Assembly: GCF_001894945.1 (NCBI RefSeq)
Contig: NZ_BCXE01000003.1
Location: forward strand, 1 to 64,000
Direction: 5' to 3'
From: Rhodococcus ruber NBRC 15591
Lineage (GTDB): Bacteria > Actinomycetota > Actinomycetes > Mycobacteriales > Mycobacteriaceae
DNA: 64,000 bases
How positions within the stretch are numbered: the stretch's first letter is position 1; the number at the start of each line of letters is the position of its first letter. The notes below the pieces were generated by a model. It did not search any database. It was not told the origin of the DNA and was given only the letters and a program-made list of their open reading frames with translations. The translations under genes were made by a program, and so were the position numbers. Of this stretch, positions 35,819 to 58,649 are shown in pieces.

Positions 35819-35836
35819 TAACCATACGCATGATTA
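35819..35836. promoter_or_regulatory. 18-bp catabolic operator, site 1
   Basis: TAACCATACGCATGATTA, near-palindromic, in the divergent region between the esterase/BVMO unit and the SMP-30 gene. It belongs to a five-member family with consensus close to TATCCATGCGCATKRTTA. Confidence 0.6.
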
Positions 35837-35863
35837 TTTGCAATACCGCGCGGCAGAGCCCTT

Positions 35864-35881
35864 TATCTATGCGCATGATTG
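35864..35881. promoter_or_regulatory. 18-bp catabolic operator, site 2
   Basis: TATCTATGCGCATGATTG, 45 bases centre to centre from site 1, on the SMP-30 side of the same divergent promoter. Two sites in one region suggest control of both directions. Confidence 0.6.
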
Positions 35882-35961
35882 GGCTAGCTTGGAAGAGAGT
35901 TCCGGGGGGCGTCTCCCCGCATCTGCCGTCTCCCCGCATCTACTACGGAAGGCCACCGACC

Positions 35962-36882
35962 ATGACTGCCGGAAACCAGGACACCGCGCTGCAGAGCCCC
36001 ATCGACACCGTCGTCTCCGACCGTGCCTTCCTCGAGTGCCCGCGCTGGCACGACGGACGGGTGTGGGTCTCGGATCTCTACCGGCACGAGGTGATCTCGA
36101 TCGGTTCCGACGGTGCGGTCACCGTCGAGGCCACCCTCCCCGGCGACGAGCCGTCCGGGCTCGGCTGGCTGCCCGACGGGCGCCTGCTCATCACCGCGAT
36201 GGAGTCCGGGCGGATCATGCGCCGCGAGCACGACGGCGAGATCGTCGTCCACGCCGATCTCTCCTCGGTCGCGACCGGCAAGCTCAACGACATGGTGGTC
36301 GCCGAGGACGGCACCGCCTACGTGGGCAGCTTCGGCTTCGAATTCAAACGCGACACCCCGATCGCGCCGGCCAACCTGATCCGCGTCGCGCCGGACGGCT
36401 CCTTCACCGTCGAGGCCTCCGACCTCCGCTTCCCCAACGGCATGGTGATCACCCCCGCCGGCACGCTGGTCGTCGCGGAGAGCATGGGCAACAAGCTGAC
36501 CGCCTTCGACATCGGGGCCGACGGCCGGCTCGATGGGCAGCGCACCTGGGCCGCGTTCGGACCGGACCTGCCCACCGAGTCGGTCAAGGCCGCGATGAGC
36601 GCCGCGGCCGTCGCGCCGGACGGCATCTGCCTCGACAGCGACGGTGCGGTGTGGGTCGCCGACGCTCTCCACCGGCGGGTCATCCGCGTCGAGGAAGGTG
36701 GCACGATCACCGCCGAGGTCGTGTTCCCGACCGGGGTGTTCGCGTGCATGCTCGGCGGGCCGGAAGGCAACACCCTCTACGCCTGCGCGGCGCCGAACTC
36801 CTCGGAGGCCGCCCGTCGTCATACGCGCGACGCGAGCCTGCTCGCCACCCGCGTCGGCGCCACCCACGGCGGTCGCCCGTAG
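35962..36882 (+). CDS. SMP-30/gluconolactonase-family lactonase
   Basis: A 306-aa six-bladed propeller protein of the SMP-30/gluconolaconase/LRE family. The metal site is suggested by the Glu in FLECPRWHDG, the Asn in KLNDMVVAEDG and the Asp in DSDGAVWVADALHRR. It probably hydrolyses a lactone, fitting its position opposite a BVMO/esterase pair. The ATG at 35962 follows GGAAGG. It is alone on its strand and ends at a strong convergent terminator. Confidence 0.85.
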   Translation: MTAGNQDTALQSPIDTVVSDRAFLECPRWHDGRVWVSDLYRHEVISIGSDGAVTVEATLPGDEPSGLGWLPDGRLLITAMESGRIMRREHDGEIVVHADLSSVATGKLNDMVVAEDGTAYVGSFGFEFKRDTPIAPANLIRVAPDGSFTVEASDLRFPNGMVITPAGTLVVAESMGNKLTAFDIGADGRLDGQRTWAAFGPDLPTESVKAAMSAAAVAPDGICLDSDGAVWVADALHRRVIRVEEGGTITAEVVFPTGVFACMLGGPEGNTLYACAAPNSSEAARRHTRDASLLATRVGATHGGRP

Positions 36883-36901
36883 GACGGCCCTCAGGACGTG
36901 C

Positions 36902-41505: not shown

Positions 41506-41521
41506 TGCTAATGGTTATAAC
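41506..41521. promoter_or_regulatory. GntR-type box 1 (P450/ferredoxin divergent promoter)
   Basis: TGCTAATGGTTATAAC; the inner TAATGGTTA is a near-palindrome. It matches 14 of 16 bases of the box at 42776 between gntR and the crotonase. Likely bound by the FCD-type GntR encoded at 41953-42690. Confidence 0.65.
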
Positions 41522-41890: not shown

Positions 41891-41959
41891 GCCTGCGGTG
41901 GGCCTCAGCCTTGCGCCTGCGGTGCGCGTCAGCCCTGCGCCCGCGGTGGGCCTCAGCCC
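41888..41959. repeat. Three tandem 24-bp units at the 3' end of gntR
   Basis: Units at 41888-41911, 41912-41935 and 41936-41959 share TGCGCCYGCGGTGSGCSTCAGCC with few changes. The third unit contains the gntR stop codon, so the two others look like duplications of the gene's last bases and stop into the intergenic region. Confidence 0.85.
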
Positions 41960-42690
41960 AGTGCGCGGTCCCACTGGATGACCTGATCGAGCAGGTCGGG
42001 GTACTTGCGCTGGGCATACCGCCGGTAGGCGTTGATGTGGTCGCGCATGCGTTCCTCGGAGCCGATCTCGTCCCCCTGGGAGAGCGACTCGTAGATCCGG
42101 GTGTGCGCGACGATGATCGCCTCGCGCCGGTGCGGTGGGTAGTCGATGCCGACCGCCGTGCCGTCCATGATGCCGAGCAGGGAATCGACCATGTACCCGA
42201 ACAGCGGATTGCCCGAGGACCAGGCGATCAGGTCGTGGAAGCTCTTGTTCGCCTCGAGGAACTCGTGCTGGTCACCGAGCGATCCGTGCATCCGGTCGAT
42301 GGTTTCCTTCAGATCGACGAGCGTCTCGCCGCTGATGCGCTGGGCGGCCAGCCGGCTGATCATCGGCTCGAGGGCGGTGCGCGCCTCGATGATGACGCTG
42401 AACGGGGCGTCCTTGAGCTGCATGAGGAGGATGAGCGAACTCGCAAGATGGGACGCGTCGGGGTCCAGCATCACCGGCCCGCCTCTCGGTCCCGGCTTGA
42501 GAGCGATGACCCCCTGGAATTCCAGCAATCGCAGGGCTTCCCGCAGTGTGCCACGACCGATCTCGTACTTCTCGAGCATGATCCGCTCCGACGGCAGCAG
42601 ATCGCCCGCCGCCAGATTCTGCCTGGTCGCGTCCCTGATGATGTGCTGCGCCACCACCATGGCCGCTTTGGGCGCCCGTCCTGTGATCAT
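41953..42690 (-). CDS. FCD-type GntR regulator 1
   Basis: A 245-aa FadR/FCD-subfamily GntR protein. The N-terminal winged helix is LLPSERIMLEKYEIGRGTLREALRLLEFQGVI. The FCD effector domain has the D/N-x3-H type ligand region (ANKSFHDLIAWSSGNPLF) and later His residues. It is paralogous to the regulator at 43858. The box TGCTAACGATTATAAC lies 86 bases upstream of its start and another copy stands before the P450. It probably represses the P450 operon, the ferredoxin, the crotonase and itself, released by a CoA ester or acid intermediate; the ligand is inference. Confidence 0.88.
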   Translation of the reverse strand: MITGRAPKAAMVVAQHIIRDATRQNLAAGDLLPSERIMLEKYEIGRGTLREALRLLEFQGVIALKPGPRGGPVMLDPDASHLASSLILLMQLKDAPFSVIIEARTALEPMISRLAAQRISGETLVDLKETIDRMHGSLGDQHEFLEANKSFHDLIAWSSGNPLFGYMVDSLLGIMDGTAVGIDYPPHRREAIIVAHTRIYESLSQGDEIGSEERMRDHINAYRRYAQRKYPDLLDQVIQWDRALG

Positions 42691-42775
42691 CGCGCCTTCT
42701 CCTCCCCGGAGCGCCCGCCGGCTCGGGAACGCCGTCCGGAGCGGACACTCCCCACTTCCCGCCGAGCCAAAATAA

Positions 42776-42791
42776 TGCTAACGATTATAAC
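42776..42791. promoter_or_regulatory. GntR-type box 2 (gntR/crotonase divergent promoter)
   Basis: TGCTAACGATTATAAC with inner near-palindrome TAACGATTA. It sits 86 bases before gntR and about 100 bases before the crotonase start, suited to autoregulation and control of the divergent gene. Confidence 0.65.
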
Positions 42792-43677: not shown

Positions 43678-43694
43678 ACACACGTTCGATAATG

Positions 43695-43740
43695 GTGCAC
43701 ATCAATGTGCACAATCGCGTGCACAATGAGTACAGTGCAC
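43695..43740. promoter_or_regulatory. Array of four GTGCAC palindromes before gntR 2
   Basis: GTGCAC occurs at 43695, 43707, 43719 and 43735, spaced 12, 12 and 16 bases, within an A/T-richer stretch immediately after the crotonase stop and 118 bases before the second gntR. Regular spacing suggests cooperative binding on one face of the helix. Confidence 0.55.
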
Positions 43741-43857: not shown

Positions 43858-44607
43858 GTGGCTGCAATGTCGAGAGGCCCGAAGACGTCGCTGGTGGTAG
43901 CCCAGCAGATCGTCCGGGATACGGCGCGAAAAGGTCTGCAGCCCGGGGACCTGCTGCCCCCGGAGAAGGCGATGCTCGAGGAGTACCAGATCGGCCGCGG
44001 GACCCTGCGCGAGGGACTGCGGCTGCTCGAGTTCCAGGGCATGATCGCCCTCAAGCCGGGACCCAAGGGCGGTCCCGTCCTCCTCGACCCCGACGCGTCC
44101 CACCTGGCGAGCACCATCATCCTGCTGATGCAGCTCCAGAACGCCTCCCTCAACACCATCGTGGAGGCGCGCACCGCCCTCGAGCCCGTCATCTGCCGCC
44201 TGGCCGCCGAGCGGATCAGCGACGAGAACCTGCAGGAGCTGAAGCAGTCCGTCGACCGGATGCAGCAGTCGTTCGACACCGCGGACATCGACACGTTCCT
44301 CGAGACGAACAAGCAGTTCCACGACGTCATCGCCTGGTCCACCGGCAACGCGCTCTTCGGCTACCTGACGGACGCGCTGCTCCGGATCACCGGCGGCACG
44401 GTGATGGGCGTCGACCATCCCGCCCCGCTGCGGGAGACGACGCTCAAGGCGCACACGCAGATCTACGAGGCGCTGAATTCGCACGACGCGGACCTGTCCG
44501 AGGACCGGATGCGCGACCACATCAACGAGTACGTCCGCTACGCCGAGCGCAAGTTCCCCGAACTCCTGAGCCAGGTCCTGCCCTGGAACCAGGCGCTCGG
44601 CGGCTGA
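43858..44607 (+). CDS. FCD-type GntR regulator 2
   Basis: A 249-aa paralogue of the regulator at 41953. The winged helix is LLPPEKAMLEEYQIGRGTLREGLRLLEFQGMI, and the FCD domain contains TNKQFHDVIAWSTGNALFGYL. The GTG at 43858 has GAGGAGG six bases upstream and gives a protein the same length as its paralogue. An earlier in-frame ATG at 43705 would add 51 residues and run through the GTGCAC array, so I reject it. It may control the transcription units with the 18-bp operator or the GTGCAC array; neither is proven. Confidence 0.87.
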   Translation: MAAMSRGPKTSLVVAQQIVRDTARKGLQPGDLLPPEKAMLEEYQIGRGTLREGLRLLEFQGMIALKPGPKGGPVLLDPDASHLASTIILLMQLQNASLNTIVEARTALEPVICRLAAERISDENLQELKQSVDRMQQSFDTADIDTFLETNKQFHDVIAWSTGNALFGYLTDALLRITGGTVMGVDHPAPLRETTLKAHTQIYEALNSHDADLSEDRMRDHINEYVRYAERKFPELLSQVLPWNQALGG

Positions 44608-44750: not shown

Positions 44751-44768
44751 TATCCATGCGTATGGTTA
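44751..44768. promoter_or_regulatory. 18-bp catabolic operator, site 3
   Basis: TATCCATGCGTATGGTTA, with CCATGC/GTATGG nearly perfectly palindromic, about 110 bases before the alcohol dehydrogenase start that opens a five-gene operon. Confidence 0.65.
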
Positions 44769-44874
44769 TGGTGATAGCGATCACATGCACACATCGCGAT
44801 CACATCCGTCGAGCCCGCGCCGGAGCCCTGCCCCGGCCGCCGCTCGCGCCTTCACCCCGTCACGAGGAGAAGCC

Positions 44875-45996
44875 ATGAAGACCATCGGAGCGCTGCTGTG
44901 GGAGCCGGGAACCCGGTCCGGTTGGAGCGTCGAGGAAATCGAGATCGATCCCCCCAAGAGCCGGGAGGTGCGGGTCAAGCTCGCCGCCTCCGGCATCTGC
45001 CACAGTGACGACCACGTCGACACCGGCGACATCCCCCTCGACTGGGCGCCGATCATCGGTGGCCACGAAGGCGCCGGCGTGATCGAGGAACTCGGCCCGG
45101 ACGTCACCGGTTTCGAGGTCGGCGACCACGTCGTCCTGTCCTTCCTGCCGTCCTGCGGCCACTGCAAGATGTGCACCATCGGCCGTTCCAACATGTGCGA
45201 GATGGGTGCCGGCGTGCTCGCGGGCTACGCACCCGACGGCACGCACCGCGTCCACGCCCGCGGCCAGGGCGTCGGCCCGTTCTCCTACCTCGGCACCTTC
45301 TCGCCGTACGTCGTGGTCAACATCGACTCGTGCGTGAAGATCGGCAAGGACATCCCGCTCGACAAGGCCGCGCTCATCGGCTGCGGCGTGCCCACCGGCT
45401 GGGGATCGTCCGTCTACGCGGCCGACATCCAGCTCGGTGACACCGTGGTCGTCATCGGCACCGGCGGTGTGGGCATGAACGCCGTCCAGGGCGCCCGGCA
45501 CAAGGGCGCCAAGAACATCGTCACGATCGACCCGGTCGAGTTCAAGCGCGACCAGGCGAAGATCTTCGGTGCCACCCACACCACCGAGAACTTCGACCAG
45601 TGCCGCGAGGTCGTCGATCAGCTCACCGACGGCCAGGGCGCCGACGTCGTCATCATCACGGTCGACATCGCCTACGGGCACCTGCTGAACCCCGCCCAGG
45701 AGATGACCCGTCGCGGCGGCACCCTGGTGCTCACCTCGGCGGCGCCGGTCACCCAGCGCGACGTGCCGTTCGACCTGTTCACCTTCGCGATGTCGGGCAA
45801 GCGCCTGCAGGGCACCCTGTACGGCACCACGACGGCGCGCCGCGACATCCCGCTCATCGCCGACATGTACCGCCGCGGCGAGTTCAAGCTGGACGAGCTG
45901 GTCACCAAGACCTACAAGCTCGAGGACATCAACACCGCGTTCAAGGATCTCCGCGACGGCAAGAACATCCGCGGCGTCATCATGTACGACGACTAG
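44875..45996 (+). CDS. NDMA/mycofactocin-type zinc alcohol dehydrogenase
   Basis: A 373-aa zinc-dependent medium-chain alcohol dehydrogenase. The catalytic zinc site is Cys42, His64 and Glu65 plus a later Cys; the structural zinc site is Cys94, Cys97, Cys100 and Cys108. The Rossmann motif is VVVIGTGGVGMNAVQGA. It matches the NDMA-dependent alcohol dehydrogenase subfamily of actinobacteria, whose tightly bound NAD is re-oxidised through mycofactocin rather than free NAD. It would oxidise a hydroxylated intermediate to an aldehyde or ketone. ATG at 44875 with GAGGAGA; first gene of ADH-SnoaL-SDR-FMO-SnoaL. Confidence 0.9.
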   Translation: MKTIGALLWEPGTRSGWSVEEIEIDPPKSREVRVKLAASGICHSDDHVDTGDIPLDWAPIIGGHEGAGVIEELGPDVTGFEVGDHVVLSFLPSCGHCKMCTIGRSNMCEMGAGVLAGYAPDGTHRVHARGQGVGPFSYLGTFSPYVVVNIDSCVKIGKDIPLDKAALIGCGVPTGWGSSVYAADIQLGDTVVVIGTGGVGMNAVQGARHKGAKNIVTIDPVEFKRDQAKIFGATHTTENFDQCREVVDQLTDGQGADVVIITVDIAYGHLLNPAQEMTRRGGTLVLTSAAPVTQRDVPFDLFTFAMSGKRLQGTLYGTTTARRDIPLIADMYRRGEFKLDELVTKTYKLEDINTAFKDLRDGKNIRGVIMYDD

Positions 45997-46102
45997 ATCG
46001 GCACGCGCGACTGCGCGGGTGATCCGCGCCCGGCACCCGGGCCGGGACGGAGTCGACACTCCGTCCCGGCCCGTCCGTGTACCTCCGACAGGAACAGAGC
46101 CG

Positions 46103-46648: not shown

Positions 46649-46687
46649 CGGCGGATCGGGCCCGTCGGCGGCCCCGAAGGAGCAGCT

Positions 46688-47530: not shown

Positions 47531-47555
47531 TCCGGCCGGACGAACGGGAGACCTC

Positions 47556-49352
47556 ATGACCGCAAGACTCGACACCCCGCGTCTCGATCCCGCCCGCCCC
47601 GCCGAGGTCGCCGAGCGCTGGCTCGCGGATTTCGCCGATGCACTCCGGTCGGGCGGTACCGGCGACTATCCGGATGCTCTCGCCACCGACGCATGGTGGC
47701 GCGACCTGCTCGCCTTCACCGGTGATCTGCGCAGCCTGCACGGCGAATCGGCGATCCGCCCGCTGCTCACCGGCGCGGCGGACCTCGAGGTCCGCGACGA
47801 GGCACTCGATTCCGCCGCCCCGCCGGTTCTGCTGCCCACCGGCGACGGTCCGCCGGTGATACAGCTGCTCTTCCGCCTCACCGTCCGCTTCGGACAGGTC
47901 CGTGGCGTCGCGCGCCTGACCCCGGACGAGACGGACCGCTGGCGAGCGATCGCCGTGCTGACGGCCCTCGACAGTCTCGCCGGGGCCGAACCGGCTGTCG
48001 GAGAACGTCGTCCGATCGGCGCCCCGGAACCCGGGGAACGCGTCACCGCCCACTGGGGCGACCGCCGCCGTCTCGCGAACGAGTGCGCCGACCGGGATCC
48101 GGACGTCCTCGTGATCGGTGCCGGGCATTCCGGCCTCGGACTCGCCGCCTACCTGGGCGCGATGAACGTGCACACGCTCGTCGTCGAACGCAACGAGCGC
48201 GTGGGCGACAACTGGCGCAACCGGTACGACTCGCTGGTGCTGCACGACCCCGTGTGGTCGAACCATCTGCCGATGATGCCGTTCCCACCCACCTGGCCCG
48301 TGTTCACCCCGAAGGACAAGATGGGTGACTGGCTCGACATCTACGCCCGGGCCCTGGAACTGAACGTGTGGACGCGCACGGAACTGGTGAGTGCCTCGTA
48401 CGATCCGGCGACGAGGCGCTGGGAGGTGCTCCTCGACCGCGGCGGCGAACGGCGCGTACTGCATCCACAGCACGTGGTCCTGGCCACCGGACTGAGCGGC
48501 ACCGAGCCGCTCGTCCCGGACATCCCCGGGACCGGAGAATTCGCGGGCGAACTGCTCCATTCCGGCCGGTACGCGACGGACCCCCGACGGAGCGGCCGGA
48601 ACGTCGTCGTCATCGGCACCGGGAACAGCGGCCACGACATCGCGCAGGACCTCTACAACACCGGCGCGAACGTGACCCTCGTCCAGCGGGGTCCGACCTA
48701 CGTCGTCGGCGGCACCACCGTGGTCGACGTCATGCTGAAGCCGGCCTACGGCGAGGACACCGCACCCACCGAGATCGCCGACCTCGTCGGGGCGTCGTTC
48801 GCGCGACGGGACGAGGGATTCGTCGACGGTCTGCGTACCGCGGTCGCGGCGATGGCCGACATCGATCGTGATCTGCTCGATGCCCTGAGCGCCCGGGGAT
48901 TCCGCCATCACCTGGGCGACGGCGGGACCGGAGCGATGAACCTCTTCCTCACCCGCAACGGCGGCTACTACATCGACGTCGGCGCCTCGCGGCTCGTCGC
49001 GGACGGGTCGATCGGGCTGGTCGCCGGGAAGACCGTCGAACGATTCGTCCCCGAGGGTGTCATGATGTCGGACGGCACCGTCCTGCCCGCCGACACCGTC
49101 GTGTTCGCCACCGGATTCCGGGGCATTCTCGACACTGCCCGCCGCGTCCTGGGCGACGCGGTCGCCGACCGGTGCGGACCGGTCTGGGGCCTCGACGACG
49201 AGGGCGAGATCCGGTCGGTGTGGCGACGTTCCGGCCACGACCGGTTCTGGTTCAGCGGCGGCAATCTCACGTTCGCCCGGATCTACAACAAGTACCTCGC
49301 ACTGCAGATCAGAGCCGACCTGGACGGCATCGACCTGCCGTCCGTTCCCTGA
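47556..49352 (+). CDS. FAD monooxygenase with N-terminal NTF2-like domain
   Basis: A 598-aa protein. Residues 1 to about 150 look like a SnoaL/NTF2-like module (WLADFADALRSGGTGDYPDAL; LLFRLTVRFGQVRGVARLTP). The rest is a flavin monooxygenase of the FMO/YUCCA type, with an FAD motif near residue 186 (IGAGHSGLGLA), ERVGDNWRNRYDSLVLHDP and an NADPH motif near 351 (VIGTGNSGHD). The C-terminus has ATGFRGILDTARRVLG. It uses NADPH and O2; ketone or heteroatom oxidation is possible. It lacks the GGTWxWNRYPG of the two classical BVMOs nearby. Starts 25 bases after the SDR. Confidence 0.88.
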   Translation: MTARLDTPRLDPARPAEVAERWLADFADALRSGGTGDYPDALATDAWWRDLLAFTGDLRSLHGESAIRPLLTGAADLEVRDEALDSAAPPVLLPTGDGPPVIQLLFRLTVRFGQVRGVARLTPDETDRWRAIAVLTALDSLAGAEPAVGERRPIGAPEPGERVTAHWGDRRRLANECADRDPDVLVIGAGHSGLGLAAYLGAMNVHTLVVERNERVGDNWRNRYDSLVLHDPVWSNHLPMMPFPPTWPVFTPKDKMGDWLDIYARALELNVWTRTELVSASYDPATRRWEVLLDRGGERRVLHPQHVVLATGLSGTEPLVPDIPGTGEFAGELLHSGRYATDPRRSGRNVVVIGTGNSGHDIAQDLYNTGANVTLVQRGPTYVVGGTTVVDVMLKPAYGEDTAPTEIADLVGASFARRDEGFVDGLRTAVAAMADIDRDLLDALSARGFRHHLGDGGTGAMNLFLTRNGGYYIDVGASRLVADGSIGLVAGKTVERFVPEGVMMSDGTVLPADTVVFATGFRGILDTARRVLGDAVADRCGPVWGLDDEGEIRSVWRRSGHDRFWFSGGNLTFARIYNKYLALQIRADLDGIDLPSVP

Positions 49353-49383
49353 CCCATCCCCTCGAGTACACGGAGACCGACAC

Positions 49384-49806
49384 ATGCGCGCCGACGACAT
49401 CAACGAGATCATCCGCGTCACCCACCTCTACGCCCGGGGTCTCGACCGGTTCGACCCCAAGGAAGCCCTGTCCGCCTTCGCACCCGACGGGGTGTGGGAC
49501 GCCAGCGCCGTGGGCCTGACCCGGTACGAGGGCCACGAGCAGATCCTCGACTTCTTCGAGCGGGACGCACAGGCGGTGGACAAGCAGTTCCACATCATCA
49601 CCAATCACGTGATCGACTTCGAGGACGACGACCACGCCACCGGTACGAATTACGTCTTCTCCGAAGCGGAGATGAAGAACGGCGCCGCCATCAAGGCGAT
49701 CGCACTCAACGAGGACCGCTACGTCCGCACCGCCGACGGCTGGAAGATCGCCGAGCGGATCATCACGGGTCTCACCACGCCGCAGATGGACGGCTTCGAC
49801 GCCTGA
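49384..49806 (+). CDS. SnoaL-like/NTF2-fold protein 3
   Basis: A 140-aa SnoaL_4-type protein (HLYARGLDRFDPKEALSAFAPDGVWDASAVG; DGWKIAERIITGLTTPQMDGFDA). Last gene of the alcohol dehydrogenase operon, 31 bases after the monooxygenase and followed by a terminator. Function unknown. Confidence 0.84.
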   Translation: MRADDINEIIRVTHLYARGLDRFDPKEALSAFAPDGVWDASAVGLTRYEGHEQILDFFERDAQAVDKQFHIITNHVIDFEDDDHATGTNYVFSEAEMKNGAAIKAIALNEDRYVRTADGWKIAERIITGLTTPQMDGFDA

Positions 49807-49886: not shown

Positions 49887-50195
49887 TCAGATGTCCTTGG
49901 TGATCTCGTAGAAGTCGAACGAGACGCCGGCCTGCGCGAAGTTCTCGAGGTCGGCTGCGCCCTGCTGTCCTTCCGGCGACGCCATGTCCGCGAGCATGGC
50001 TTCCTTGCTGTCCCAGTCGCAGACCGCGACCAGGAAGTGCGGCGGGGTGCTGCCGTCGGGAGTGGAGCACACACCCCATTCGTAGTTCCGGATGCCCTGC
50101 TGCTTCAGTGCGAGCTTGGAGTGCACGTTGCGGTAGTGGTCGAGGAACTTCTCGGGATCCTCGGGGTGGTTGTAGGCGGCGACGAGTCGGTACAT
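49887..50195 (-). CDS. EthD-family small protein
   Basis: A 102-aa EthD/dimeric alpha-beta barrel protein (MYRLVAAYNHPEDPEKFLDHYRNVHSKLALK with the family DxHYxxxHxPL-like pattern). EthD-type proteins accompany P450 or monooxygenase systems, for example ether degradation, with no firm catalytic role. ATG at 50195 with AAAGAGG. Divergent from the second BVMO and probably controlled from the same promoter region. Confidence 0.82.
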   Translation of the reverse strand: MYRLVAAYNHPEDPEKFLDHYRNVHSKLALKQQGIRNYEWGVCSTPDGSTPPHFLVAVCDWDSKEAMLADMASPEGQQGAADLENFAQAGVSFDFYEITKDI

Positions 50196-50327: not shown

Positions 50328-50345
50328 TATCCATTCGCATTGATA
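50328..50345. promoter_or_regulatory. 18-bp catabolic operator, site 4
   Basis: TATCCATTCGCATTGATA pairs at seven of nine positions and lies in the divergent EthD/BVMO 2 region. Confidence 0.65.
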
Positions 50346-50485
50346 GAGTGATACCCGTCACAGACTTTTTTTCCGCGCCGGCCGATCAGCCGGGCGGATC
50401 ACGCTCCCGCCGGACCCACCGAATCCGCGAGTCCGGCGGCAACATCGGCACATCCGATCGAATCCCCAGTCAGAGAGGCCATCCG

Positions 50486-52111
50486 ATGACTGCAACTCCC
50501 ACCCCCACCGCCGCTACCGAGGTCGATGCCGTCGTCGTCGGCGCGGGCTTCGCAGGCCTGTACCTGCTGTGGAAGCTGCGCCGCCACGGTTACACCGCCG
50601 TCGCCCTCGACAAGGGCAAGGAGGTCGGCGGCACCTGGCACTGGAACCGCTACCCCGGCGCCCGCTGCGACGTGGACAGCCACGACTACTCCTTCGGGTT
50701 CGACGAGGATCTCGAGCAGGAGTGGGAGTGGAGCGAGCGTTACCCGTCGCAGCCCGAACTGCAGGCGTACCTCTCGCACGTCGCCGACCGGTTCGACCTG
50801 CGCCGCGACATCCGGCTCGAAACCGCCGTCACCGAAGCCCGATTCGACGATGGCGAGCAGAAGTGGCACGTCCGCACCGACCGGGGCGACGAGTACGTCG
50901 CTCGGTTCTGTCTCATGGCCGTCGGCTGCCTGTCGGTACCGAAGGACGTCGACGTCCCCGGCCTCGACAAGTTCCAGGGACCGATCTACCGCACCAGCGC
51001 GTGGCCGGAGGAGGGGGTGGACTTCACCGGTCTGCGGGTCGCCGCGGTCGGTACGGGTTCCTCCGGGGTGCAGGCCATCCCGGAGATCGCCAAGCAGGCC
51101 GGCACGCTGACCGTCCTCCAGCGCACCGCCAACTTCGTCATTCCCGCCCGCAACCACAAGCTCGACCCGGAGTTCGTCGCGAACGTCAAGGCGAACTACC
51201 GCGCGCGGCGCCAGGCCTGCCGGACCGCCGCCGCCGGCTGCATCCGCGACGACAACCCGAAGGCCGCGTACGACGTCAGCGACGACGAGCGGTGGGCCGA
51301 GTACGAGAAGCGCTGGCAGGGCGGCGGCATCGCCTTCCTCGGCGCGTTCGCGGACCTGATGGTGGATCAGCGGGCCAACGACTCGGTGTGCGACTTCGTC
51401 CGGGCCAAGGTCGACGAGATCGTCGACGATCCGGACGTCGCGGACAGCCTCAAGCCGTTCGGCTACCCGATGGGCGCGAAGCGGCCCGTCATCGGCACGG
51501 ACTGGTACGAGACGTTCAACCGCGACAACGTCGAACTGGTCGACCTGCGGAAGAAGCCCCTCGACAGCTTCACCGAGCACGGCATGCATCTCGCCGACGG
51601 CACCGAGTACGAGTTCGACGCCGTCGTGCTCGCCACCGGGTTCGACGCCTTCACCGGCGCGTTCACGCAGATCGACATCCGCGGCCGCGGCGGTCTGCCG
51701 TTGCGGGAGGCGTGGCAGGAGGGCCCGAAGACACACCTGGGCCTGGGCACCGCGGGCTTCCCCAACATGTTCATCATCGCCAACGTCGGCAGCCCGTCGG
51801 TGCTGTCGAACATGGTGACCGCCATCGAGCAGCACGTCGAGTGGACGGTCGAGACCATGGATCACATGCGCGAGCACGGACTGACCACGATCGAGGCCAC
51901 CGAGGAGGCGCAGAACGCGTGGGTCGAGACCGTGGAGGAGATCGCGAACATGACCCTGTGGCCGCAGGGTGAGTCGGGATCCTGGTACCGCGGGCAGAAC
52001 ATCCCCGGCAAGCCGCAGATCTTCATGCCCTACGCCGGCGGCATCGTGCTCTACGAGCAGACGTGGAACGAGGTCCGCGACGCGGACTTCAAGGGATTCG
52101 TCCTGGCCTGA
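50486..52111 (+). CDS. Baeyer-Villiger-type monooxygenase with altered fingerprint
   Basis: A 541-aa protein of the cyclohexanone monooxygenase class. It has VVGAGFAGLY, GGTWHWNRYPGARCDVDSHDY, GTGSSGVQAIPE, and GFPNMFIIANVGSPSVLSNM near the C-terminus. The BVMO fingerprint reads FQGPIYRTSAWP: Arg169 (CGC) replaces the normally conserved His (CAC). All other motifs are intact. That His is linked to coupling NADPH and peroxyflavin chemistry in studied BVMOs. This enzyme may therefore be a variant with different regulation or activity, or may function normally. ATG at 50486 with AGAGAGG. Monocistronic, ended by a hairpin. Confidence 0.9.
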   Translation: MTATPTPTAATEVDAVVVGAGFAGLYLLWKLRRHGYTAVALDKGKEVGGTWHWNRYPGARCDVDSHDYSFGFDEDLEQEWEWSERYPSQPELQAYLSHVADRFDLRRDIRLETAVTEARFDDGEQKWHVRTDRGDEYVARFCLMAVGCLSVPKDVDVPGLDKFQGPIYRTSAWPEEGVDFTGLRVAAVGTGSSGVQAIPEIAKQAGTLTVLQRTANFVIPARNHKLDPEFVANVKANYRARRQACRTAAAGCIRDDNPKAAYDVSDDERWAEYEKRWQGGGIAFLGAFADLMVDQRANDSVCDFVRAKVDEIVDDPDVADSLKPFGYPMGAKRPVIGTDWYETFNRDNVELVDLRKKPLDSFTEHGMHLADGTEYEFDAVVLATGFDAFTGAFTQIDIRGRGGLPLREAWQEGPKTHLGLGTAGFPNMFIIANVGSPSVLSNMVTAIEQHVEWTVETMDHMREHGLTTIEATEEAQNAWVETVEEIANMTLWPQGESGSWYRGQNIPGKPQIFMPYAGGIVLYEQTWNEVRDADFKGFVLA

Positions 52112-52281: not shown

Positions 52282-52340
52282 GACGGACACCGAAACGGGG
52301 GTGCAGGCCCGAAGCCCGCACCCCCGTCTCGGTGTCCGTC
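52282..52340 (-). terminator. Terminator of the acyl-CoA ligase operon
   Basis: 23-nt arms at 52282-52304 and 52318-52340 (one mismatch; GACGGACACCGA is the outer part) around 13 bases. It begins within the stop codon of the TMADH-like gene on the minus strand. The 120 bases between the two terminators hold nothing recognised. Confidence 0.82.
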
Positions 52341-54321
52341 AGATCAGCTTCGCGAGCGCGTACGCCTGACGGGTGGCGAACACCAGCCGCCGCGGCGCGT
52401 AGGCGTCACCGAGAATGTGCACCTCCCGCTCGCCCTCGGCCGCCGGGCCGTCCTCGAGACTCTCGTACAAGTCGGCGTCCCCGATGCCACCGCAGGCGAG
52501 CACCACCGAGTCGAAGCCGTCCACCTGGTAGGTGCGCCCCGAATAGACGTTGCGGGTGACGACCCCGGTCGGGGTGATCTCGACGACGTCCTCCATGAAC
52601 CGGTACTGCACGCCCTTCTCGTCGAGGCGCCCGAGGATCGCGCCCACGATGTAGCGGCCGAGCAGCTGCCCCGCGACCTGGGTCGCGTAGACGACGGTGA
52701 CGTCGTGCCCGCGATCGGTGAGGAAGTCGGCGAGCGACAGCGGCGGCATGTGGTCGTCCTGCGCGACGATCAGGACCCGCTTGCCGACCGCGGCGTCGCC
52801 GTTGAGGACGTCGCGGATGTCGGCGACATTGTCGCCGTAGACACCCGGGATGTCCGGGATCCGGCGGGTGGAGCCGGTGGCGACCGCCACCACGTCGAAT
52901 CCCGCGGACTCGATCTCCGCCTTCGTCGCCGCGTGCCGGTAGGCGACCTTCACGCCCGCCCGCTCGAGCCGGCGCTGCTGCCAGTCCAGGTACTTCTCGA
53001 ACATGTCGTACGTGGGGGCGTTGATCGCGGTGCGCAGTTGGCCGCCGAGCACGTCGGACGCCTCCCACAGCTCCACGTCGTGGCCCTTCTCCCGGGCCAG
53101 GGCCGCGAACTCCATGCCGGCCGGACCACCGCCGACGACGAGCACGCGCCTGGGGTCGGTCACGGTGGGCCACGGCCCGTCGACCTCGTTGCTGGTGACG
53201 GGGTTGACCGCGCAGCCGAACGGCAGCCCCTCGACGTAGCGGCGGCTGATGCACTCGTTGCCGCCGACGCAGGGCCGGATCTCGTCGACGCGGCCGGTGC
53301 GGACCTTCTCGACGATCGACGGCTCGGCGATGTGCGCACGAGCCATGCCGACGACGTCGGCGTCGCCGGCCGCGAGGATCCGTTCGGCGACATCGGGGTG
53401 ATTGATCCGGCCCGTGTGCACGACGGGCAGCGACACCGCCCGCTTGAGCTGCCCGGCGAGATCGCTCCACTGACCGGCCTCGTAGAAGTGCGGCTGGATG
53501 TAGGACGGGTTGCCCCACGGGCTGCCCACCACGCCGTGGAAGTAGTCGACGAGTCCGGTGCTCTCGAGGTACTGCGCGATCTCGACGGCGCCGTGGATGT
53601 CGTATCCGCCCGGCACCTCCTCACGCAGATTCAGGCGGATGCCGATGACCATGGACGATCCGATCACGTCACGGATGGCCCGCAGCACCTCGACCGGGAA
53701 CCGGCAACGGTTCTCGATCGAGCCCCCGTACTCGTCGTCGCGCTTGTTGGTCAGCGGCGACAGGAAGTACTCCAGCAGATCGTCGTGGTTCATGTGGAGT
53801 TCGACGCCGTCGAGACGTGCCTTCTGGGCCTGCTCTGCACAGAACTTGTACTGACCGACGAAGTAGGCGATCTCGTCCCGGTTCAGCTTGTGCGGAACGT
53901 TGTTGATCACCGGGGCGCTCAGGACCGACGACGCGCCGTGCGGCATACCGCCCTGGTGCACCATCTGCCCCGTCGCCACCGCACCCTCGGCGTGCAGGGC
54001 ATCGGAGTACGCCTGCACCCGTTCGACGAAGAATGGCAGGCTGTAGTGGCCTTCGACCGTGGCACCCACACCGGTGGGTTCGAACCCCGGGATCACCCCC
54101 GTGTTCGGCACCCACGCGCTGAGGCTGTCGAACCATGCGGCTCCGCCCCGGGCCCGGGACACGTAGTAGGCGAGGTTGCGTTCGGCGTCGGCCTCGGACC
54201 CGAAGATGTTGCCGATCGCCGACGCGTGCGGCGGCAGCACCACGCGGTTGCGCAGCTTCATCGGGCCGATCTGGAACGGCGAGAGCAGATGGGCGTAGGC
54301 GGAGTCCGGATCCGCGGTCAT
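52339..54321 (-). CDS. TMADH/2,4-dienoyl-CoA reductase-like flavoprotein with incomplete Fe-S motif
   Basis: A 660-aa protein. Residues 1 to about 340 are an old-yellow-enzyme FMN barrel (LLSPFQIGPMKLRNRVVLPPH; HMNHDDLLEYFLSPLTNKRDDEYGG). Residues 385-660 are an FAD/NAD-binding module (VLVVGGGPAGMEFAALAREKG). The cluster region between them reads C351-x2-G354-x2-C357-x12-C370: trimethylamine dehydrogenase has a fourth Cys where Gly354 stands. It may reduce an enoyl- or dienoyl-CoA or enone, or demethylate an amine; context favours the first. ATG at 54321. Last gene of the operon from 58575. Confidence 0.88.
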   Translation of the reverse strand: MTADPDSAYAHLLSPFQIGPMKLRNRVVLPPHASAIGNIFGSEADAERNLAYYVSRARGGAAWFDSLSAWVPNTGVIPGFEPTGVGATVEGHYSLPFFVERVQAYSDALHAEGAVATGQMVHQGGMPHGASSVLSAPVINNVPHKLNRDEIAYFVGQYKFCAEQAQKARLDGVELHMNHDDLLEYFLSPLTNKRDDEYGGSIENRCRFPVEVLRAIRDVIGSSMVIGIRLNLREEVPGGYDIHGAVEIAQYLESTGLVDYFHGVVGSPWGNPSYIQPHFYEAGQWSDLAGQLKRAVSLPVVHTGRINHPDVAERILAAGDADVVGMARAHIAEPSIVEKVRTGRVDEIRPCVGGNECISRRYVEGLPFGCAVNPVTSNEVDGPWPTVTDPRRVLVVGGGPAGMEFAALAREKGHDVELWEASDVLGGQLRTAINAPTYDMFEKYLDWQQRRLERAGVKVAYRHAATKAEIESAGFDVVAVATGSTRRIPDIPGVYGDNVADIRDVLNGDAAVGKRVLIVAQDDHMPPLSLADFLTDRGHDVTVVYATQVAGQLLGRYIVGAILGRLDEKGVQYRFMEDVVEITPTGVVTRNVYSGRTYQVDGFDSVVLACGGIGDADLYESLEDGPAAEGEREVHILGDAYAPRRLVFATRQAYALAKLI

Positions 54322-54326
54322 TTCGT

Positions 54327-54842
54327 TCACCCCTTGTTCGGTCGGGGCCCGAGCGAGCCGCCGCGTCCGTCGCCCGGCATCCTGGTCGAGTCGTGACTGA
54401 CCGCGATTCGGACGGGACGGACTTCCAGGACGACTCGGTTCGGGCTGTCCAGCAGGCGCTGGAAGGCTTCGGGATCGTTCGGAGCATGGCGCGCCGCGAA
54501 CGCCGGGTAGAACCAGCGTCTGGTCTCCGCGTCGGCGTGGACGGTGACACGGCCGCGGACGGCGAGCATCCTCCTGCCGGGCAGTCCGGTACCGGCATTT
54601 GAGATCACCAGCGTCACGCGGGGTTCGCGCGTCGCTGCCCGGACGTGGGCGCGGTCCTTCGCGGCGGTGAGCCAGAACCGGTCGCCGTGGTGCAGGTAGC
54701 TCATCACCACCCCGGCCGGCCACCCGGCCGCGGTGGTGAAGGCGAAGGTGCATTCGGTCTGCGCCGCTACGAGTTCGGCGATGCCGTCCTCGTCGACCCG
54801 TAGCGTGCGCAGGTCCTCGTTGTCGTCGATGCCGACGGCCAT
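54327..54842 (-). CDS. Pyridoxamine-5'-phosphate-oxidase-fold flavin/F420-binding protein
   Basis: A 171-aa split-barrel protein (FAFTTAAGWPAGVVMSYLHHGDRFWLTAAKDRAHVRAATREPRVTLVIS). The fold binds FMN, F420 or heme in actinobacteria. Its start is six bases downstream of the SDR stop and its stop is five bases before the next gene, so it is tightly embedded in the operon. F420 use is possible given fgd in the window, but not shown. Confidence 0.82.
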   Translation of the reverse strand: MAVGIDDNEDLRTLRVDEDGIAELVAAQTECTFAFTTAAGWPAGVVMSYLHHGDRFWLTAAKDRAHVRAATREPRVTLVISNAGTGLPGRRMLAVRGRVTVHADAETRRWFYPAFAARHAPNDPEAFQRLLDSPNRVVLEVRPVRIAVSHDSTRMPGDGRGGSLGPRPNKG

Positions 54843-54848
54843 CTCACA

Positions 54849-55688
54849 TCACTTCACGTATGCGCCGGCGTCGACCGGGAAGGTGACTCCGGTGACGTAC
54901 CGCGCCTCGTCGCTGCCGAGGAACAGCACCGCGTTGCTGATGTCGATCGATTCGACCCACGGCACCGGCAGCGTGTTCAGCGACATGAACCCCGGCATCG
55001 CCTTCTCCTGCGACGGCTCCGGATCCCCGGGCGAGAACATCCCGTACGTCCCGGGGTTCTGGATCATGATGGTGTCGACGTTCGTCGGGTGGATGGTGTT
55101 GACCCGGATGCTGTAGGGGCCCAGTTCGTTCGCCATGGTGCGCATGAGTCCGACGATGCCGTGCTTGGCCGAGACGTAGTGGGCGACCTGCTGGATGCCC
55201 TTGAGTCCGCCGATCGAACTGGTGAACATGATCGAACCCCCGCGGCCCTGCTCGATCATCGTGGGGATCGCGACGACGGCGGTGTTGTAGACGCCGGTGA
55301 GGTTGACGTCGATCATGTCCCGCCACTGCTCGGCGGTGAGCTCCCACGAGCGGCCGTAGGTGGCGATGCCGGCGTTGGCGACCACGATGTCGACGCCGCC
55401 GAGGTGCGCCACCCCGTCGTCGAAGGCCCGCTGCAGCGCCGCGCGGTCCCGGACGTCGGCGCGGTGGGCCACGATCCGGCGGTCGAGGGCCTCGACGAGC
55501 CGGACGGTCTCCTTCAGCTCGTCCTCGGTAGCCAGCGGGTAGTACGGGGTCACCGTGTCGATGTTCTCGCAGATGTCGACCGCGATGATGTCGGCGCCCT
55601 CCTCGGCGAGCCGCAGCGCGTGGCTGCGGCCCTGGCCGCGGGCGGCCCCGGTGATGAACGCGACCTTGCCTTCTACTCGTCCTGCCAT
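54849..55688 (-). CDS. Mycofactocin-type short-chain dehydrogenase 2
   Basis: A 279-aa SDR with GKVAFITGAARGQGRSHALRLAEEGADIIAVD and YVSAK, a paralogue of the protein at 46688. A bound-NAD enzyme that presumably oxidises a hydroxyl group of a CoA thioester or ring intermediate and needs mycofactocin for turnover. Fourth-from-first in the acyl-CoA ligase operon order (SnoaL, ligase, MaoC-N, MaoC, SDR). Confidence 0.9.
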   Translation of the reverse strand: MAGRVEGKVAFITGAARGQGRSHALRLAEEGADIIAVDICENIDTVTPYYPLATEDELKETVRLVEALDRRIVAHRADVRDRAALQRAFDDGVAHLGGVDIVVANAGIATYGRSWELTAEQWRDMIDVNLTGVYNTAVVAIPTMIEQGRGGSIMFTSSIGGLKGIQQVAHYVSAKHGIVGLMRTMANELGPYSIRVNTIHPTNVDTIMIQNPGTYGMFSPGDPEPSQEKAMPGFMSLNTLPVPWVESIDISNAVLFLGSDEARYVTGVTFPVDAGAYVK

Positions 55689-55718
55689 GGTTGACGCTCC
55701 TCTCGTGGAAAACGATGT

Positions 55719-56135
55719 CTAGTGATCGGCGGGGACCAGGACGGTCCCGGTGCCTTCGAGAACGCGCGCGCCGCCCAGGACGTCGAGCGTGAGATCGCAG
55801 CGCACCAGGAGGCCGTCGGCGGTGTCCTCGACGTCGGTCACCACCCCTGCGGCCCGCAGCCGGTCCCCCTCGAACACGTTGCCGAGGAATCGGAACCGGT
55901 ATCCGGTGACCCGGTCCACGCCGCCGGCCCAGGACCCGAGCATGGACACGACGTAGGCGATGTTGCTCGGCCCCTGATTGACCGTGCGCTCCCCGAGGCC
56001 CAGCGCAGCCGCGGCGTTCCGATCGAAATGGATCGGGTTCGGGTCGCGCATGAGCGCCGAGAGGGTCTTCATCCGGGCCGGATCCACCGCATCGACGGTA
56101 CGTTCGGGAATCTGCTGCCCGACAGCCGGTTTCAT
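55719..56135 (-). CDS. MaoC-like hydratase, catalytic-type subunit
   Basis: A 138-aa hot-dog protein. The hydratase-2 motif RDPNPIHFDRNAAAALGL supplies the Asp/His pair. Its start overlaps the stop of the preceding MaoC-like gene (ATGA). Together the two may form a heteromeric enoyl-CoA hydratase comparable in design to ChsH2/ChsH1 of steroid side-chain degradation; that is inference. Confidence 0.87.
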   Translation of the reverse strand: MKPAVGQQIPERTVDAVDPARMKTLSALMRDPNPIHFDRNAAAALGLGERTVNQGPSNIAYVVSMLGSWAGGVDRVTGYRFRFLGNVFEGDRLRAAGVVTDVEDTADGLLVRCDLTLDVLGGARVLEGTGTVLVPADH

Positions 56136-56599
56136 GAGATTTCTCCTCGGCGGGGGAACACGATCGAGTTGGTGGTGGAGGCGCACAGCGCCCCGTCCTC
56201 ACCGTGCAGGTCGAGGCGGTAGCCGACGATGTCGAAGACGCCGGTGCGCCGGCCCACCTTGCGCGTCGCGGAGACGATCTCGCCCGAGACGCGGTAGGTG
56301 CCGCCGACGCGCAGCGGCCGGTGCACGACCGTCTCGGTCTCGCCGGCCATCGGTCCGTCGGCCTCGGTGGCCCCGAACACGGCGAACAACTCGTCCCAGC
56401 TCCAGCCCATCGCGCCGGTGGCGACGAGGAACACCAGCACCGGGTGCGCGCCGCCGTCGGCGGGGTCGGCGAGCATGCTGTCGAGGACGAGGTGCACCCA
56501 CCACGGCTCGAGCGTGGCCTGCCCGCCCGGGAAGCGGGTGCCGACGAGGTCGGCGAGCTCGGCTTCGGTCGGCACCCGGCGTCCGGTGTCCACGGTCAT
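56132..56599 (-). CDS. MaoC-like/FAS1-dehydratase-type partner subunit
   Basis: A 155-aa hot-dog protein of the N-terminal MaoC (FAS1_DH) type (ATGAMGWSWDELFAVFGATEAD; VGGTYRVSGEIVSATRKVGRRTGVFDIV). It lacks the Asp/His hydratase motif, so it is probably the non-catalytic half that shapes the acyl pocket. Coupled by ATGA overlaps to both the upstream acyl-CoA ligase and the downstream MaoC gene. Confidence 0.84.
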   Translation of the reverse strand: MTVDTGRRVPTEAELADLVGTRFPGGQATLEPWWVHLVLDSMLADPADGGAHPVLVFLVATGAMGWSWDELFAVFGATEADGPMAGETETVVHRPLRVGGTYRVSGEIVSATRKVGRRTGVFDIVGYRLDLHGEDGALCASTTNSIVFPRRGEIS

Positions 56600-58152
56600 C
56601 GGGCCGCCGTCGTCTCGAGGTACGGGGCCCGCAGGTCCCGCTTCATGATCTTTCCGGTCGGCGCCTTCGGCAGGGCGTCGACGAAGTCCACCGAACGGGG
56701 CTTCTGGTAGGAGGCCAGATTCCGCTTGGCGGTGTCGATGATCTCCTGTTCGGTGGCGGTCTGCCCGGGCTTGAGGACCACGACGGCCTTGACGACCTCG
56801 CCCCACTCGTCGTCGGGGATGCCGATGACGGCGCATTCGAGGACGGCGGGGTGGGCGCCGATGGCCTCCTCGACCTGGATGCTGTAGATGTTCTCGCCGC
56901 CGGAGATGATCATGTCCTTGGCCCGGTCGACGATGTAGACGTAGTGGTCTTCGTCCCAGACCGCGACGTCGCCGGTCCACATCCAGCCGTCCCGCAGGGT
57001 CTGTGCGGTCAGTTCCGGCTTGTTCCAGTAGCCGAGCATGTTGGCTTCGGAGCGGACCACGATCTCGCCGGGGGTCTTGCCGTCCTTGGGGACCTCGTTG
57101 CCGTCGAAGTCGACGACCCGGATGGTGGTGCCGAAGCCTTCCCGGCCACAGGACTTGAGCCGGTGCTCGTTGATGCCGTTGACCGCGTCGAGGTGGTCCT
57201 CCTGGGACAGGAACGACATGGTCGTGCCCTCGGTCTGGCCGTACCCCTGGATGAGGGTGCAGGGGAACGCCTCGAGCGCGCTGCGGACGATCGCGGACGG
57301 CATCGGGCCGCCGCCGTACTGGATGTTGCGCAGGCTCGACAGGTCGTAGGAGTCGAAGTTCTCCACGGCCATCATCCAGTTCAGCATCGTGGTGATGCCG
57401 AGGAACGCCGAGACCCGCTCCGACTCGATGATCTCGAGCGCCTGCTTGGCCTCGAAATTGACCAGCACGACCGGACATCCGTGCTTCATGTAGTTCATCG
57501 AGAGGACCACCGGGATGTGGTACATCTGGCCGGTGAGCATGTAGACGTCGGTCGGCACGACCCGCTCGGCGACGGTCTGGTTGAGCATGCCGGCGGCGGC
57601 GCTGGTGTGCGAGTGCAGCGCACCCTTGGATTCTCCCGTGGTGCCGCCGGTGTAGAGGATGAAGAACGGGTCGTCTCCCCCGACGCTCGGCGTCCAGATC
57701 GGTTCGGCCGGGCTGGAACTCGCGAGCAGCTCCTCGTACGTCCCGTTACCCCCCGGACCGAACTCGAGCCAGTGGCCGACCGAGGCGGATCGGCTCAGTT
57801 CCTCGCCCACGGGACGGAATTCGGACGCGGTGATGAGCACCTTCGGGGTGGCGTCGGCGACGAGCCCGAGCAGGGACGGGGTCGCGAGCCGCCAGTTCAG
57901 CGGCTGCAGGATCAGTCCCGCGCGACCGACGGCGAAGAACAGCTCCTGGAACTCGATGCTGTTCTTGGTCAGGACGGCGACCCGGTCGCCCTTCTCGAGG
58001 CCGAGACCGCGCAGTCCGTTCGCCAGGCGCCGGACGCGCTCGTCGAGGGCGGCGAAGGTGATGCGCCGGTCGTTGGGGACGTCGTACAACGCCATGCGGT
58101 TCGGGGTGAGGGCGGCCCACTTGGCGGGGATGAGGCCCTGGTTCATCGTCAT
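56596..58152 (-). CDS. Acyl-CoA synthetase (ANL superfamily)
   Basis: A 518-aa AMP-forming ligase. The P-loop is ILYTGGTTGESKGALHSH, followed by QGYGQTEGTT, GWMWTGDVAVWDED and the C-terminal lysine in KAPTGKIMKRD. It activates a carboxylic acid, perhaps from lactone opening and aldehyde oxidation, as its CoA ester with ATP. The substrate is not predictable. The ATG at 58152 (MTMNQGLIPAKWAALTPNR) could be preceded by none better. Coupled to the downstream MaoC-type gene. Confidence 0.92.
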   Translation of the reverse strand: MTMNQGLIPAKWAALTPNRMALYDVPNDRRITFAALDERVRRLANGLRGLGLEKGDRVAVLTKNSIEFQELFFAVGRAGLILQPLNWRLATPSLLGLVADATPKVLITASEFRPVGEELSRSASVGHWLEFGPGGNGTYEELLASSSPAEPIWTPSVGGDDPFFILYTGGTTGESKGALHSHTSAAAGMLNQTVAERVVPTDVYMLTGQMYHIPVVLSMNYMKHGCPVVLVNFEAKQALEIIESERVSAFLGITTMLNWMMAVENFDSYDLSSLRNIQYGGGPMPSAIVRSALEAFPCTLIQGYGQTEGTTMSFLSQEDHLDAVNGINEHRLKSCGREGFGTTIRVVDFDGNEVPKDGKTPGEIVVRSEANMLGYWNKPELTAQTLRDGWMWTGDVAVWDEDHYVYIVDRAKDMIISGGENIYSIQVEEAIGAHPAVLECAVIGIPDDEWGEVVKAVVVLKPGQTATEQEIIDTAKRNLASYQKPRSVDFVDALPKAPTGKIMKRDLRAPYLETTAAR

Positions 58153-58167
58153 GGTGGCTCCGGAGGC

Positions 58168-58575
58168 TCAGTACGGGAGGTCGAGGGCGATGTGCCGCTT
58201 GGTGAGCACCCAGTCGCCTCCGCTCCTGGTCCATTCGTCCTCGTACTTGCCGGTGGACAGGGCCCGGAGGGCACCGTTCTCCGCGGAGGTGATGAGCAGG
58301 TACGACACGGTGCGGACGTTCTTCTCGTCGATCTCGTCGATCAGCAGATTGGTGGTGATGTGACGCCGCTGGTCGGTCTGGGACTCGTGGGCTCCGCGGA
58401 ACAGGCCCATGATCTCCTCGCGTCCGTTGAGCGGCCCGATGAGGTCGCCGTCGCCGATCTTCATGGTGAACACGGCGGTTTCACCGAAGACCCGCTCGAC
58501 ACCGTCCATGTCGCCGTCGTCGTAGGCGAGAGCGTAGCGGGCGAGGGCGTTTTCGATTTCGTTCCTGAGCGACAT
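58168..58575 (-). CDS. SnoaL-like/NTF2-fold protein 4
   Basis: A 135-aa SnoaL_4-type protein (ALARYALAYDDGDMDGVERVFGETAVFTM; GKYEDEWTRSGGDWVLTKRHIALDLPY). First gene of the seven-gene ligase operon, 15 bases before the ligase start. The 18-bp operator lies about 57 bases upstream. Confidence 0.84.
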   Translation of the reverse strand: MSLRNEIENALARYALAYDDGDMDGVERVFGETAVFTMKIGDGDLIGPLNGREEIMGLFRGAHESQTDQRRHITTNLLIDEIDEKNVRTVSYLLITSAENGALRALSTGKYEDEWTRSGGDWVLTKRHIALDLPY

Positions 58576-58631
58576 TACGACTACTCCTGCCGAAGGGAGG
58601 GGAGGGAGATGTGATGACAGTCACTTTATAC

Positions 58632-58649
58632 TAATCATGCGCATTGTCT
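58632..58649. promoter_or_regulatory. 18-bp catabolic operator, site 5
   Basis: TAATCATGCGCATTGTCT, in the promoter of the minus-strand ligase operon. It shares ATGCGCAT with site 2. Confidence 0.6.

Follow-up and report, generated by a model that had tools for sequence, protein, structure and literature searches.

Which protein reads the 18-bp near-palindrome that recurs in the promoter regions of a large cytochrome P450 and Baeyer-Villiger monooxygenase (BVMO) cluster of Rhodococcus ruber NBRC 15591? The cluster lies in a stretch of 64,000 nucleotides (contig NZ_BCXE01000003.1, positions 1 to 64,000; hereafter the window). An original prediction described five copies of the motif, here called O, as the operator of a catabolic regulon, and named as candidate binders GntR2, one of two GntR-type regulators encoded in the cluster, or a regulator encoded elsewhere. 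GntR1 and GntR2 are labels of that prediction only, and they coincide with the names of two Corynebacterium glutamicum proteins. Our comparison of genomes suggests that the GntR-type regulators of the cluster itself bind O. The explanation that we consider probable is a joint one, in which GntR1 and GntR2 would repress from O within the core promoter and a CRP/GlxR-type regulator would act at B, a GlxR/CRP-like GTGA-N6-TCAC palindrome beside O.

A conserved motif found mainly in one catabolic cluster

O is the 18-bp palindrome TAWYCATRCGYATGRWTA, symmetrised from five 18-mers of the window, with a CATRCGYATG core and AT-rich ends. All five 18-mers were verified at 35819, 35864, 44751, 50328 and 58632, where the original prediction had placed them. 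Its own wording of the motif, with up to three mismatches, matches at the first four of these (4/5 places), against an average of 0.01 matches in dinucleotide shuffles, and the site at 58632 has three mismatches to the symmetrised TAWYCATRCGYATGRWTA. The five sites fall in four promoter regions of one catabolic gene cluster and, together with a weaker site, compare as follows with Rhodococcus aetherivorans:

35819..35836, minus strand: O site 1 (O1), esterase-BVMO1 promoter, divergent from SMP-30; identical in R. aetherivorans
35864..35881, no strand assigned: O site 2 (O2), 45 bp from O1, without an adjacent B site
44751..44768, plus strand: O site 3 (O3), promoter of the N,N-dimethyl-4-nitrosoaniline (NDMA)-dependent alcohol dehydrogenase (ADH) operon; one substitution in R. 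aetherivorans
50328..50345, plus strand: O site 4 (O4), between EthD and BVMO2, inside a fully conserved block
58632..58649, minus strand: O site 5 (O5), SnoaL-ligase operon promoter; identical in R. aetherivorans
42770..42787, no strand assigned: weak O-like site (16.7 bits) between GntR1 and enoyl-CoA hydratase; the same in R. aetherivorans

Each copy had been placed in a promoter region and none in coding sequence, and by our gene calls, with start codons of our choosing, all five are indeed intergenic; longer mechanical open reading frames (ORFs) with earlier starts cover 35819, 35864 and 50328. Throughout the genome (5.33 Mb, 56 contigs), TAWYCATRCGYATGRWTA with up to three mismatches occurs at 10 places and its reversed control at 3. 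Of the 10, five are the window sites, a sixth (C3:89042) is non-coding and lies on the same contig beyond the window, and the other four comprise two non-coding places, one within a long open frame and one overlapping a gene start. Matches are thus not evenly spread through coding DNA, and O is mainly a feature of this cluster. The off-cluster matches were rejected as regulon members: the inspected neighbours, named from translations without family search and with those of the C19 match left out, look unrelated (an MFS transporter, a MerR-type protein and an argC-like gene).

In the genome that we take to be R. aetherivorans DSM 44752 the cluster is present at 92-93% identity, on two contigs. 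O and B together are changed at 2/146 positions there, versus 119/765 for the rest of the four intergenic regions (one-sided Fisher p=5e-8, deleted bases counting as changes and insertions ignored). The 45-bp spacing of O1 and O2 is kept despite one insertion and one deletion between them, and the 89042 site has the same score. Together with the genome scan, this conservation bears out the reading of O as a cluster-specific operator. The expectation that the motif precedes orthologous operons in other Rhodococcus genomes held for R. aetherivorans, though the O-B composite (one mismatch, 2-nt gap) is present in only 1 of 17 other genus members searched, namely R. aetherivorans, and, among 401 genomes sampled from a larger group of the family (our genome included), in two, the second again being R. 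aetherivorans. As a route to the regulator, the composite search was abandoned, returning only the same two genomes each time; a search by regulator homology succeeded instead.

The motif in the company of GntR1/GntR2-type regulators

Two FCD-type GntR regulators are encoded within the cluster:

41953..42690, minus strand: GntR1, GntR/FCD regulator and proposed O-binding protein (PF00392 40.3 bits, PF07729 85.5 bits)
43867..44607, plus strand: GntR2, its paralogue (PF00392 37.3 bits, PF07729 86.8 bits), with a start of our choosing; the frame upstream has an indel in R. aetherivorans

Both contain a GntR winged helix and an FCD effector domain above the cut-offs (27 bits for PF00392, 24.3 bits for PF07729). 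They are 63% identical and have in common a GRGTLRE stretch in the helix-turn-helix (HTH).

A search of 394 genomes of the class with GntR1 gave matches at E<=1e-45 in 13, our own included. Our first set consisted of 15 loci from 14 genomes (278,026 bases), comprising the 13 non-own matches, each with about 20 kb around it (11.9 and 13.5 kb in two cases), plus Aldersonia and Dactylosporangium loci; L071 and L072 come from one genus, and L076 and L077 from one genome. These loci were scanned with a matrix built solely from the five window sites, alongside 12 control stretches (238,811 bases) taken from 11 of these 14 genomes. Eleven sites of at least 20 bits were found, spread over 8 of the 15 loci, and none in the controls, where the highest score was 16.3; 400 column-permuted palindromic matrices gave a mean of 0.125 such sites and a maximum of 4. 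Taking the best score in the 300 bp before each regulator match, the sum over the 15 loci is 184, versus 57±16 under permutation, and none of 3000 permutations reached it. At four of the 15 loci a site of at least 20 bits lies directly upstream of the match, at 76 bp (L071), 76 bp (L072), 125 bp (L075) and 34 bp (L079). The helix stretch reads GRGTLRE in 14 of the 15 loci and GRATLRE in L079. In Dactylosporangium, an O-like palindrome of 17.4 bits precedes a SnoaL-like frame (named from its translation), which is followed by the GntR gene.

A second set held 19 further loci from searches of 397 genomes of the order and 396 of the phylum. It includes congeners of first-set genomes (L109, L110, L115 and L116 in genus g23; L104, L106 and L108 in g34). 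By a crude ungapped comparison 18 of the 19 are non-redundant, with L109/L110 and L115/L116 having the same upstream site. Upstream scores summed to 123 over 18 loci, versus 28±19, with 0 of 3000 permutations higher; 8 of the 18 upstream regions reached at least 12 bits (permuted maximum 5), and within about 3.7 kb, 6 of the 19 loci contain a site scoring 20 bits or more (under permutation 0.02 on average and at most 2). For a negative comparison, we took 8 of the 30 matches listed in a tblastn search of plasmids with GntR2 (592 records; best identity among the matches listed, 41%). The FCD regulators of these eight loci are more distant (31-41% identity), and several lie beside catabolic genes; no site there reaches 18 bits, the best scoring 16.8. 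In other genomes, then, O appears to travel with GntR1/GntR2-type regulators.

As to the binder itself, the comparison points to the GntR1/GntR2 subfamily as a whole, which retains one of the two candidates originally named and adds GntR1. G052, a genome of the same family and a different genus, keeps O and B 2 nt apart at its ADH promoter, and its single match over threshold is 73% identical to GntR1; this tips the balance, and GntR1 appears slightly ahead as the O-binding candidate. GntR2, with the same helix stretch, may share the O sites.

Two other elements lie near the regulator genes. Four GTGCAC palindromes (43695, 43707, 43719 and 43735) stand upstream of GntR2 in the region 43690-43745 and are unchanged in R. 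aetherivorans; one GTGCAC precedes the Aldersonia GntR2 orthologue (L032 3277), and the whole window contains 25. The array has the GT-N2-AC spacing that O lacks and may be a second operator, of canonical spacing, for GntR2 at its own promoter. A G(A/G)TTATAAC element, possibly a further operator, occurs in the P450/ferredoxin (41513-41521) and GntR1/hydratase (42783-42791) intergenic regions; both copies are the same in R. aetherivorans, which is little informative for the first, whose surroundings are 99% identical.

A CRP/GlxR-like palindrome beside the motif

An exact B palindrome adjoins four of the five O sites, and the window has six in all; the original prediction had overlooked these adjoining palindromes, as well as the further O site on the contig beyond the window. 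The four are:

35803..35816, no strand assigned: B site GTGATGCACATCAC, 2 nt from O1
44771..44784, no strand assigned: B site GTGATAGCGATCAC, 2 nt from O3
50348..50361, no strand assigned: B site GTGATACCCGTCAC, 2 nt from O4
58611..58624, no strand assigned: B site GTGATGACAGTCAC, 7 nt from O5, with one central change in R. aetherivorans

The order O, B, gene is the same at esterase, ADH, BVMO2 and SnoaL-ligase. When 15,000 positions were drawn at random from the examined loci, coding and intergenic DNA alike, a fraction of 0.0003 had an exact B within 7 nt. GTGA-N6-TCAC occurs 116 times in the genome and its reversed control 20 times, an excess to be expected of a global regulator. Exactly one cyclic nucleotide-binding protein (PF00027) is encoded. 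This protein matches CRP/FNR chains of the PDB at E of about 1e-135 and 1e-113, chains which we take to be M. tuberculosis CRP and C. glutamicum GlxR. Both the sites and the protein of a CRP/GlxR regulon are present in this genome, and B is probably, as part of the joint explanation, a site of its single CRP/GlxR-type regulator. Two further GTGA-N6-TCAC palindromes stand without an O site, one at 62969-62982 at the start of an acyl-CoA dehydrogenase ORF and the other at C3:64420-64433 on the same contig.

Promoter layout and proposed mechanism

Read toward the gene, O is preceded by TTGCAA, TTGCTT and TTGATT and runs into TATGGT, TATGGT and TAGAGT at the esterase, ADH and BVMO2 promoters, respectively. 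The hexamers are spaced by 17 at all three and keep one fixed offset from O, which is also found at the G052 ADH promoter (TTTACA and TATGGT). At the ligase promoter, a promoter scanner set at 9 of 12 found TAGACA-16-TAAAGT. The BVMO2 promoter of R. aetherivorans is identical from the TTGATT hexamer to just past B, in an alignment that is 79% identical as a whole and drifts downstream.

We propose that in four promoters (esterase-BVMO1, ADH, BVMO2 and ligase) O fills the spacer between a -35-like and a -10-like hexamer, and that GntR1, probably also GntR2, would bind it there as an operator. Since O would sit within the core promoter, the bound dimer would exclude RNA polymerase, and a pathway metabolite binding the FCD domain would release the regulator. 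B, which would cover the last part of the -10 and the presumed start, would add general carbon-source control by CRP/GlxR, most simply as further repression, as its position and the analogy with gabTDP of C. glutamicum suggest. MerR-type promoters have spacers of 19-20 nt; MerR-like activation from within the spacer was rejected, the inferred spacers being 16-17 nt. We also rejected O2 as part of an SMP-30 promoter, finding no fitting hexamers at the same offsets.

Evidence against this model and alternative explanations

Several results weigh against repression from O by GntR1 and GntR2. There is no O site at the promoter of GntR2 and only the weak one at that of GntR1; 11 of the 15 upstream regions of the first set score below 20 bits, five of them below 8; and 7 of the 15 loci lack any site of at least 20 bits. 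L078, whose regulator is 45% identical with the same GRGTLRE, has a best score of 6.7 within 20 kb. The 14-kb Aldersonia locus has no O beside a GntR2 orthologue of 90% identity, and the Aldersonia genome has 6 O-pattern matches versus 5 for the control. In the second set none of the 18 upstream regions reaches 18 bits, and the 3 of 18 with at least 15 bits are equalled by 6 of 3000 permutations. A B matching at 8/8 bases lies within 40 bp at 1 of the 33 O sites of at least 14 bits outside our contig. None of the five window sites has GT-N0-4-AC among its central 10 bases, and of 32 sites overall 1 does; the 27 outside sites were chosen by the window matrix and are not independent on this point. 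Finally, the promoter offsets were chosen after inspection of the window promoters, and they fail at most other O sites compared (e.g., L075, L076, L077, L079, O2 and 89042), so that the layout is at best a feature of this cluster.

The last point bears on the alternative that survives best, in which GntR1/GntR2 activates from O, or activators bind O and B to serve start points elsewhere. At 9 of 12 the scanner reports no promoter around O in the other three of the four window regions. GlxR activates or represses according to site position in the available excerpt of PMC7652997, and in that of PMC2230225 the C. glutamicum GntR1/2 pair represses gntP and gnd, with a ptsG site that fits activation. 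Activation is nevertheless unlikely in our view, given that the identical BVMO2 block begins at the hexamer, ends just past B and gives way to drift, and that the same offsets recur at three window promoters and at the ADH promoter of G052.

Rather less likely still is that another regulator binds O, such as the small AraC-type HTH protein encoded at 28792-29223 or an unlinked one, and that the GntR genes are merely catabolic neighbours. Homologue loci do often have catabolic genes in common besides GntR, and the GntR2 promoter is without an O site. Yet in L071, L072, L075 and L079 it is the GntR match itself that has a strong site 34-125 bp upstream; L075 has, apart from the regulator, no match to proteins of the window contig at E<=1e-10, and L033 has besides it only a 32% CoA-transferase match; and the eight more distant FCD regulators, several of which lie beside catabolic genes, are without strong sites. 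That the five copies are functionless chance matches in AT-rich promoter DNA is extremely improbable, for although the ends of O are AT-rich and intergenic DNA generally scores higher, this is contradicted by the shuffles, by the conservation in R. aetherivorans and by the failure of permuted matrices that keep composition and symmetry.

Extent of the regulon and other genes of the cluster

If repression by GntR1 and GntR2 holds, the regulon would comprise the following gene groups, each preceded by a strong O site:

33150..35722, minus strand: esterase (34775-35722) and BVMO1 (33150-34760)
35962..36882, plus strand: SMP-30/gluconolactonase-like protein
44875..49806, plus strand: ADH group (NDMA-dependent ADH, SnoaL, short-chain dehydrogenase/reductase (SDR), flavin-containing monooxygenase (FMO)-like protein, SnoaL), a likely single transcript by order and strand
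49887..50195, minus strand: EthD-domain protein
50486..52111, plus strand: BVMO2
52339..58575, minus strand: ligase group (SnoaL, acyl-CoA ligase, MaoC, SDR, old yellow enzyme (OYE)-type oxidoreductase and smaller ORFs), a likely single transcript by order and strand

The claim that the sites cover nearly every gene of the 33-58 kb pathway outside the P450 operon was somewhat too broad: no strong copy is found at the P450, ferredoxin reductase, aldehyde dehydrogenase, SnoaL (36945), ferredoxin and enoyl-CoA hydratase genes or at either GntR gene. The contig continues to 92.6 kb with P450-, ligase-, acyl-CoA dehydrogenase- and thiolase-like genes, named from translations without family search.

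CYP125/CYP142 and P450cin are the structures nearest in sequence to the first P450, a likeness that hints at a cyclic or terpenoid-like substrate and proves nothing. The NDMA-dependent ADH (44875-45996) scores 515 bits with TIGR03989, versus an NCBIfam cut-off of 440; enzymes of this type are linked to mycofactocin, which suggests a mycofactocin-linked oxidation step in the pathway. On plasmids, a tblastn search with BVMO2 gave about 52% identity as the best among the matches listed. Matches to the contig's thiolase, SDR, enoyl-CoA hydratase, acyl-CoA dehydrogenase, ligase or CitE-like genes are found next to the GntR homologue in several of the loci L067-L073, from different families, so this Rhodococcus cluster is probably younger than part of its pathway.

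Discussion

The closest known arrangement is the gluconate regulon of C. glutamicum, where, in the available excerpt of PMC2230225, two FadR-type paralogues named GntR1 and GntR2 act at operators that agree with TNGTNNNACNA, and GlxR is reported at the gntP and gntK promoters. As in those gluconate genes, two FadR-type paralogues and GlxR would converge here on one catabolic regulon (PMC2230225). In contrast to them, O disagrees with TNGTNNNACNA, the pathway differs, and the pair of the window is tied to O by comparison. The design of two FadR-type paralogues with GlxR is therefore known, and what is different here is the operator.

Operators of the FadR subfamily consist of GT/AC boxes about a short centre, NyGTM-N0-1-KACNy, and the GntR-family exceptions to GT-N-AC named in the same excerpted source are NanR and BioR, with a TGGTATAW repeat and a TTATMKATAA motif, respectively (PMC4494728). 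O likewise falls outside the GT-N-AC consensus and, unlike theirs, is neither a TGGTATAW repeat nor TTATMKATAA. The NanR model PRK03837 is the best NCBIfam match for both window regulators, at 107.3 and 109.8 bits, well below its cut-off of 260. For the combination with a global site, the gabTDP genes of C. glutamicum offer a parallel: in the available excerpt, a GlxR site downstream of the start is proposed to repress, with a PucR-type pathway regulator alongside (PMC7652997). In the window, by contrast with that PucR-type case, only 2 nt separate B from the specific operator in three promoters. Our literature search, which covered open-licence papers, found no description of this operator.

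We regard it as an evenly balanced proposition that a thin but broad branch of FCD-type GntR regulators reads a non-GT...AC operator (about TAAYCATGCGCATGRTTA), joined here with CRP/GlxR sites into a composite switch over a large P450/BVMO cluster. Such a branch would pair a DNA motif with a regulator subfamily across several actinobacterial families. Its operator would deviate from the consensus of the largest GntR subfamily, and the regulation of the P450/BVMO cluster could be tested on short DNA fragments. As catalysts, BVMOs and P450s are of practical use, and knowing the switch that governs this cluster would aid in finding its inducer and its substrate.

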